Part shown: positions 18,494-19,316 of the stretch, piece by piece
How positions within the stretch are numbered: the stretch's first letter is position 1
Layout: each line of letters begins with the position of its first letter
Origin: Thermoplasmatales archaeon I-plasma
Lineage (GTDB): Archaea; Thermoplasmatota; Thermoplasmata; Thermoplasmatales; GCA-001856825
Length of the DNA: 64,000 nt
NCBI GenBank assembly: GCA_001856825.1
Contig: ATMD01000002.1
Location: forward strand, 310,004-374,003
Reading direction: 5' to 3'
Position numbers and translations under genes: made by a program
Notes under the pieces: generated by a model
The model's input: only the letters and a program-made list of their open reading frames with translations
Database searches by the model: none
Told to the model about the DNA's origin: nothing

Positions 18494-18657
18494 GAGGGAA
18501 TATCAAAGGCTGATATTTTATGTGCATGCTAATAACTGGAAACTAAACGGAATGTTCTCCATTACATTAAATTAATTTTCGAGAAAGACGGTAAACTTCT
18601 GTTTATATAAGCAACCCCTCAAAAAAGAGTTTATATTGCTATTGCATATTAGAAACT

Positions 18658-18712
18658 GTGATGACAAGAGGGTCAGCTGAGCTAAAGCTGTGATGACCCC
18701 TATGAGTGCTGA
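18658..18712 (+). ncRNA. C/D-box sRNA candidate: C GTGATGA, D' CTGA, C' GTGATGA, D CTGA, two 12-nt guides
   Basis: C 18658-18664; guide CAAGAGGGTCAG; D' 18677-18680; C' 18690-18696; guide CCCCTATGAGTG; D 18709-18712. Confidence 0.8.
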
Positions 18713-18725
18713 CAGGTGATAAAAA

Positions 18726-19316
18726 ATGAAGAGTATAGAGGAGCTTGCAGAAACTGCAAGACAGTTAAAACAGAAGGGCATGAATGATAAAGATATAGCA
18801 ACAGAGATGCACCTTTCCCTGAACACGATAATATGGTTACTCAGCGGTGAATCAAAGATAGAAAAGGCTCCAGGGGACGTGAAGATAGGCTGGAGAAGTA
18901 TCGGTGTCTACTCAAACAGGATATATAACGTGGCAGAGATAATGGCAGACATTATAGAGGAGGAGACACACAGGGCAGAAAAGGAAATAGATACGATCGT
19001 CGGCATAACTATCAACGGAATTCCATATGCTACTTTCATTTCAGACATCCTTGGGACAGAACTGGGGATTTACAGGTCCATAACCACAAAGGGAGAGGGC
19101 ACATTCTCAAGTAACTATGCGAGCATATCTGGAAAGAACGTGGTGCTTGTTGATGACGTTGTCAGCACCGGGGAGACAATATCCAAGGCTTTGAGTGCAG
19201 TGAAGAAGGAGAAGGGAAACCCCATCCTCGTTGTCGTACTTACAAATAAAACTACTAAGGACGAGATAGACGGAGTTCCGCTAAGGGCACTGATCAGGGC
19301 AAGACTGCTCAAGTGA
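18726..19316 (+). CDS. gfcR: GfcR-type PRTase-like transcriptional regulator (HTH + orotate phosphoribosyltransferase-like)
   Basis: N-terminal HTH KGMNDKDIATEMHLSLNTIIWLLSG; PRPP-binding NVVLVDDVVSTGETISKAL. Confidence 0.85.
   Translation: MKSIEELAETARQLKQKGMNDKDIATEMHLSLNTIIWLLSGESKIEKAPGDVKIGWRSIGVYSNRIYNVAEIMADIIEEETHRAEKEIDTIVGITINGIPYATFISDILGTELGIYRSITTKGEGTFSSNYASISGKNVVLVDDVVSTGETISKALSAVKKEKGNPILVVVLTNKTTKDEIDGVPLRALIRARLLK

Follow-up and report, generated by a model that had tools for sequence, protein, structure and literature searches.

The window, the whole stretch of 64,000 nucleotides of the genome of Thermoplasmatales archaeon I-plasma analysed here, carries on its forward strand a predicted dual-guide C/D-box sRNA, which extends from box C to box D (18658–18712) and lies in the leader of a gene for a GfcR-like (orotate phosphoribosyltransferase-like) protein of 196 aa (18726–19316, + strand), followed by lysS. 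The sRNA consists of box C (GTGATGA, 18658–18664), the D' guide (CAAGAGGGTCAG, 18665–18676), box D' (CTGA, 18677–18680), the D'-C' spacer (GCTAAAGCT, 18681–18689), box C' (GTGATGA, 18690–18696), the D guide (CCCCTATGAGTG, 18697–18708), and box D (CTGA, 18709–18712), all on the + strand. The order C, D', C', D is the layout of archaeal C/D-box methylation guide sRNAs, and a guide of 12 nt lies directly upstream of D' and of D. Upon re-reading of the sequence, the positions of boxes, guides, and spacer given in the initial annotation proved exact to the base, as did the equal length of the guides (12 nt each) and the placing of the D box 13 nt upstream of the gfcR-like ATG (box D ends at 18712, the ATG starts at 18726). 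The D box had also been described as touching the Shine-Dalgarno (SD) sequence, but two nucleotides separate it from the SD of the gfcR-like gene (GGTGAT, 18715–18720, + strand), which is complementary to the 16S 3' end ATCACC (16S gene at C4:274539-276012).

The strict C/D'/C'/D pattern has a single occurrence in the window when both strands are searched, and none in 300 dinucleotide-preserving shuffles, while a looser box pattern is found on average 0.01 times per shuffle. The motifs are short and GTGATGA looks like an SD, which gives some initial appeal to the view that TGATGA and CTGA motifs happened to fall into this arrangement within an ordinary leader; the empty shuffles, together with the conservation, the covariation, and the targets described below, leave this view with practically no probability.

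Promoter, Leader, and Fold of the sRNA

A TATA-like element (TTTATATT, 18630–18637, + strand) precedes the sRNA and would serve as a promoter for both the sRNA and the gfcR-like gene. From the start of this element to box C there are 26–28 nt in the loci of the window's own family (f1; 15 genomes, four genera) and 25–30 nt in those of a second family (f2), which takes in genomes of the DHVE2 group; further TATA-like matches in some of these loci are unconserved. Since the TATA-like element keeps a nearly fixed distance, the transcript should begin at about box C. Between box D and the ATG there is neither room nor a TATA-like element for a separate gfcR promoter. A second TATA-like sequence, present in the window and in one other genome (G006), lies at 18602–18610, some 28 nt farther upstream than the conserved element, and may allow a longer leader.

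Judged by its profile scores, the downstream protein is a member of the broader PRK02277 subfamily (NF002620/PRK02277; score 200, above the cut-off of 115) that falls short of the haloarchaeal GfcR equivalog (NF045507, GfcR_Halo; 127 bits, under the cut-off of 300 bits). The sRNA stands directly before the gfcR-like ATG in all 15 f1 genomes and in 15 f2 genomes. In the leader alignment the promoter and the flanks drift, and the boxes, the D guide, and the SD stay; TGATGA of box C and GGTGA of the SD are invariant in the 16 aligned leaders. The distance from box D to the SD amounts to 0–9 nt in the f1 and f2 leaders. One metagenome-assembled genome, A_EUR_01, has two gfcR-like loci (L103 and L116, on G001:C136 and G001:C89), each with an sRNA leader and encoding proteins 94–95% identical to that of the window; two strains may have been binned together in this case.

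Within the D'-C' spacer of the window, a short hairpin (G18681-C18688 and C18682-G18687, loop UAAA) is followed by the 3-nt bulge UGU (18689–18691) of a kink-turn. All 24 unique D'-C' spacers of 9–20 nt contain a stem of two or more base pairs with a 3' strand that ends 2 nt before TGATGA, a position that is the kink-turn register with a 3-nt bulge; 19% of shuffled spacers have a stem at that register. The paired bases differ by family (GGTCC/GGACC, GGCCC/GGGCC, GGGC/GCCC, GGTC/GACC, GCCC/GGGC, and GC/GC). From these sequences, the covarying D'-C' spacer stem is a predicted kink-turn at C'/D', and shorter spacers fit a k-loop. A conserved terminal stem beside boxes C and D is absent from f1, a point against the sRNA reading, and present in many stand-alone copies; copies in f9 (e.g., GGCCG/CGGCC) and in genus g88 of family f4 have clear stems. 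When the window RNA is folded in naked form, the two guides are predicted to pair (GGGUCA/UGACCC), which gives the leader its main hairpin (18665–18708). This guide-guide pairing also counts against a guide function, for which, if the fold is correct, proteins must open it. In most families, both guides retain GGG and CCC.

Distribution and Host Genes Across the Class

The D guide together with boxes C' and D (D-half pattern) was found in 118 of 400 genomes of the class, against 0 of 400 for a reversed-pattern control, which already refutes the chance arrangement considered above. The element is absent from the gfcR leaders of families f3 and f4 and of more distant families. These leaders first suggested a local feature, a view that was abandoned when model and pattern searches placed the sRNA at other sites in f4 and in numerous further families of the class. 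Weak matches of the sRNA model in f3 (L204–L206) are not C/D sRNAs with this D guide.

In most of the genomes that bear it, the sRNA lies away from gfcR. It is a stand-alone gene in f4, in one case preceded by an AT-rich promoter-like sequence of its own, often adjoins an aminoacyl-tRNA synthetase-like gene in f9, and stands 20 nt before the gene for DP2 of PolD in f27 and 9 nt before an OB-fold gene in f32. Because the sRNA is found alone or before other genes elsewhere, gfcR is to be regarded as a host and not as its purpose, and placement in a leader has arisen with different hosts, i.e., gfcR-like, DP2, and OB-fold genes. At two f4 loci, L186 (G212:C36:3737-3795) and L184 (G259:C27:138583-138638), the sRNA follows the gfcR-like gene at a distance of about 1.8 kb, on the strand opposite to it, still near this gene but outside its leader. 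The sRNA model also gave a weak match to a tRNA-Trp(CCA) intron with C/D-like boxes in the genome of the window (L199; G000:C4:97897-97951), which resembles the known guide RNA of the archaeal tRNA-Trp intron.

Targets of the Two Guides

The search of rRNA and tRNA that the initial annotation had proposed, with the lack of any complementary site named as the outcome that would speak against a C/D-box sRNA, returned complementary sites for both guides. The cytidines it had predicted by the N+5 rule were right; its 12-nt target strings were slightly long, the matches covering 10 nt (guide nt 2–11) in each case. Among shuffled guides, 1.7% and 2.0% (for the two guides) reach a 10-bp match; each match alone is modest evidence, and it is conservation that makes both convincing.

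The N+5 rule was applied to most of the 45 tRNA genes located in the genome. The D guide has its best target in the intron-containing elongator tRNA-Met (C1:213817-213916), which ARAGORN mis-names as Ser because of its intron. Its sequence ACTCATAGGG forms 10 Watson-Crick pairs with the D guide and places C34 at N+5. The pairing spans the exon-intron boundary (ACUCAUA/GGG, with the slash at the boundary); from the anticodon stem we infer that the intron occupies the canonical 37/38 site, so that 3 of the 10 pairs involve intron bases. In the D guide, nt 2–11 (CCCTATGAGT) do not change across species, where the CTATGAGT part is fixed by the class-wide search pattern and the remaining positions are free; they are exactly the bases that pair with the tRNA, and nt 1 and 12, which are unpaired, vary.

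In all sRNA-bearing genomes whose elongator tRNA-Met gene was read, the pre-tRNA is of the ACTCATAGGG type. In f3, where the pattern search found no genome with the sRNA, the pre-tRNA-Met mostly reads ACTCATAAG, and 1 of the 11 read has ACTCATAGGA. A guide variant matching the f3 intron (TTATGAGT) was allowed in the class-wide pattern search and was not found. Under the strict pattern, the listed genomes with an intron of the GG type comprise 55 with and 81 without the sRNA, and none of the 12 genomes listed from outside the order whose intron starts otherwise (f9 genus g85, f12, f15, and f30) bears it (Fisher p = 0.003, with genomes counted without phylogenetic correction). This association suggests that the sRNA acts on the precursor, as described for sR-tMet of Haloferax.

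The best wobble-free target of the D' guide is the sequence TGACCCTCTT of 23S rRNA (LSU 1953–1962; gene at G000:C2:160278-163200), where N+5 is C1956. Nucleotides 2–11 of the guide form a 10-bp Watson-Crick match with helix 69 (H69; UGACCCUCUU). By mapping onto the known helix 69 sequence of E. coli, we take LSU C1956 to correspond to E. coli C1920. Searched for exactly, the 12-nt D' target was matched without mismatch only by the sRNA itself, since the real match is only 10 nt long. The D' consensus AAGAGGGTCA is complementary to UGACCCUCUU, and this core is common to f1, f2, f4, f6, f19, f21, f24, f27, f29, and further families, including copies of the sRNA that stand alone; nt 1, opposite the H69 mismatch, varies among species. 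A second site, LSU 977 (UUGGCCCUCUU), at which the D' guide might act instead of or besides helix 69, offers 11 contiguous pairs, two of which are G-U. However, H69 is matched over nt 2–11 without wobble, position 4 of the guide stays U (opposite A in H69 and G at 977), and position 1 is free (G, A, C, or T), as fits the mismatch in H69 and not the U at 977; action at LSU 977 is therefore quite improbable, and helix 69 is preferred as the D' target. The D' guide has been lost in f9 and in part of f2, and the rRNA target thus appears less essential than the tRNA target. In genus g19 of f2 (L045–L047, L144, and L196) the D' guide now reads AGGGCG, without a match to H69, and the D guide is intact.

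Relation to gfcR and to Known Systems

Taken together, the locus very probably encodes a dual-guide C/D-box methylation sRNA that shares its promoter with the gfcR-like gene and targets C34 and H69. The identification as a C/D-box sRNA made in the initial annotation is borne out by the box architecture, the class-wide conservation, the covarying kink-turn stem, and the complementary rRNA and tRNA targets. The primary transcript would begin at or a few nucleotides before box C, and the sRNA would make up nearly the whole leader of the gfcR-like mRNA. L7Ae, Nop5, and fibrillarin, for the last of which the gene is seen in the genome (G000:C1:48988-49551), would assemble on it. Through the pairings described above, the D guide would direct 2'-O-methylation of the wobble base C34, presumably before GGG is spliced out, and the D' guide would do so for C1956 (E. 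coli C1920). The leader would be one among several sites that have hosted the sRNA in the class; its retention is probably due to the promoter that it provides, and effects on gfcR, if any, would be secondary.

Coupling of sRNA processing to gfcR translation is sterically plausible; it cannot be the main purpose of the sRNA. A rival proposal is that the element is a cis-regulatory leader, in which L7Ae or the full C/D RNP covers the SD, 3' trimming destroys the mRNA, sRNA production and gfcR translation are mutually exclusive, and this control is the reason for the placement. The 0–9 nt between box D and a conserved SD in f1 and f2, and a position kept in two families though the gfcR proteins are only about 59% identical, are consistent with such control. 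In Sulfolobus, L7Ae bound to a k-turn in the 5' UTR masks the SD of l7ae (PMC5539422), and in thermophilic archaea, 5'-overlapping C/D sRNA genes, which make up about 7% of genes, lower downstream expression (Tripp et al., 2017, as cited in PMC7994747). Yet the same sRNA is elsewhere stand-alone or before a DP2 or OB-fold gene, the guide bases are invariant and not the k-turn bases alone, and the targets are left unexplained, for which reasons we consider control of gfcR a somewhat unlikely cause of the placement. An unlikely further reading is that the shared transcript is a decision point, where an RNP that hides the SD would yield sRNA and ribosome loading would yield GfcR-like protein, while the sRNA would couple the Met wobble base to H69. 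If true, the free level of L7Ae, Nop5, and fibrillarin, i.e., the demand of ribosome building, would set a metabolic regulator.

The function proposed for the sRNA is, by its sequence features, of a known type. New as far as we have checked are the sRNA as such in this class, its conserved combination of one target in tRNA with one in rRNA, the guide lying over an exon-intron border with a matching intron, and the changing host leaders; in our literature search no paper dealt with this sRNA in Thermoplasmata, although this does not prove that none exists. Two candidate methylation sites, the wobble base of elongator tRNA-Met and a nucleotide of H69, are thereby assigned to a single sRNA across a large archaeal class. 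The occurrence of a guide RNA in the leaders of gfcR-like, DP2, and OB-fold genes, or of none, bears on how archaeal C/D genes acquire promoters.

In bacteria, 23S C1920 is methylated by the 2'-O-methyltransferase TlyA; the H69 nucleotide is equal by mapping, and a protein enzyme there contrasts with a predicted RNA guide here. Rfam at gathering scores matched only two tRNAs, and its nearest models are archaeal C/D sRNAs. The best of these, sR3 (RF01133; E 3e-8), resembles the sRNA in its D' guide (GGGUCUG) and box layout, but scores 36.8 bits, below the gathering score of 41, and has a different D guide (CCGUUGGAGC). Conversely, sR41 (RF01126) has an identical D-guide core, GAGCCCUAUGAG before CUGA, but an unrelated D' guide (26.6 bits, gathering score 54). 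In hyperthermophilic archaea, many methylations are predicted in helix 69 (PMC4644070). In Pyrobaculum, tRNA-targeting sRNAs are stated in a review to be without a target for the other guide (PMC7994747), with which the conserved tRNA and rRNA target pair contrasts. The autoregulatory L7Ae leader likewise places a k-turn near the SD in an archaeal 5' UTR, but its gene is l7ae and it is without guides or targets (PMC5539422). In the 5'-overlapping C/D genes of thermophiles the sRNA likewise directly precedes or overlaps the ORF start, whereas the present placement is conserved in two families with a TATA-like element at an almost constant distance from box C. Both Pyrococcus and haloarchaea have known C/D guides that direct Cm34 of tRNA-Met (PMC7994747; PMC4033218; PMC2584109). 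The closest counterpart by target is sR-tMet of Haloferax volcanii (Joardar et al., 2011, as cited in PMC4033218; predicted in PMC2584109), likewise a C/D-box guide for Cm34 of elongator pre-tRNA-Met, which according to the title of the former study acts on the precursor; the likeness is one of target, and the present sRNA differs in carrying another conserved guide, directed at 23S H69, and in its position in a gfcR-like leader.
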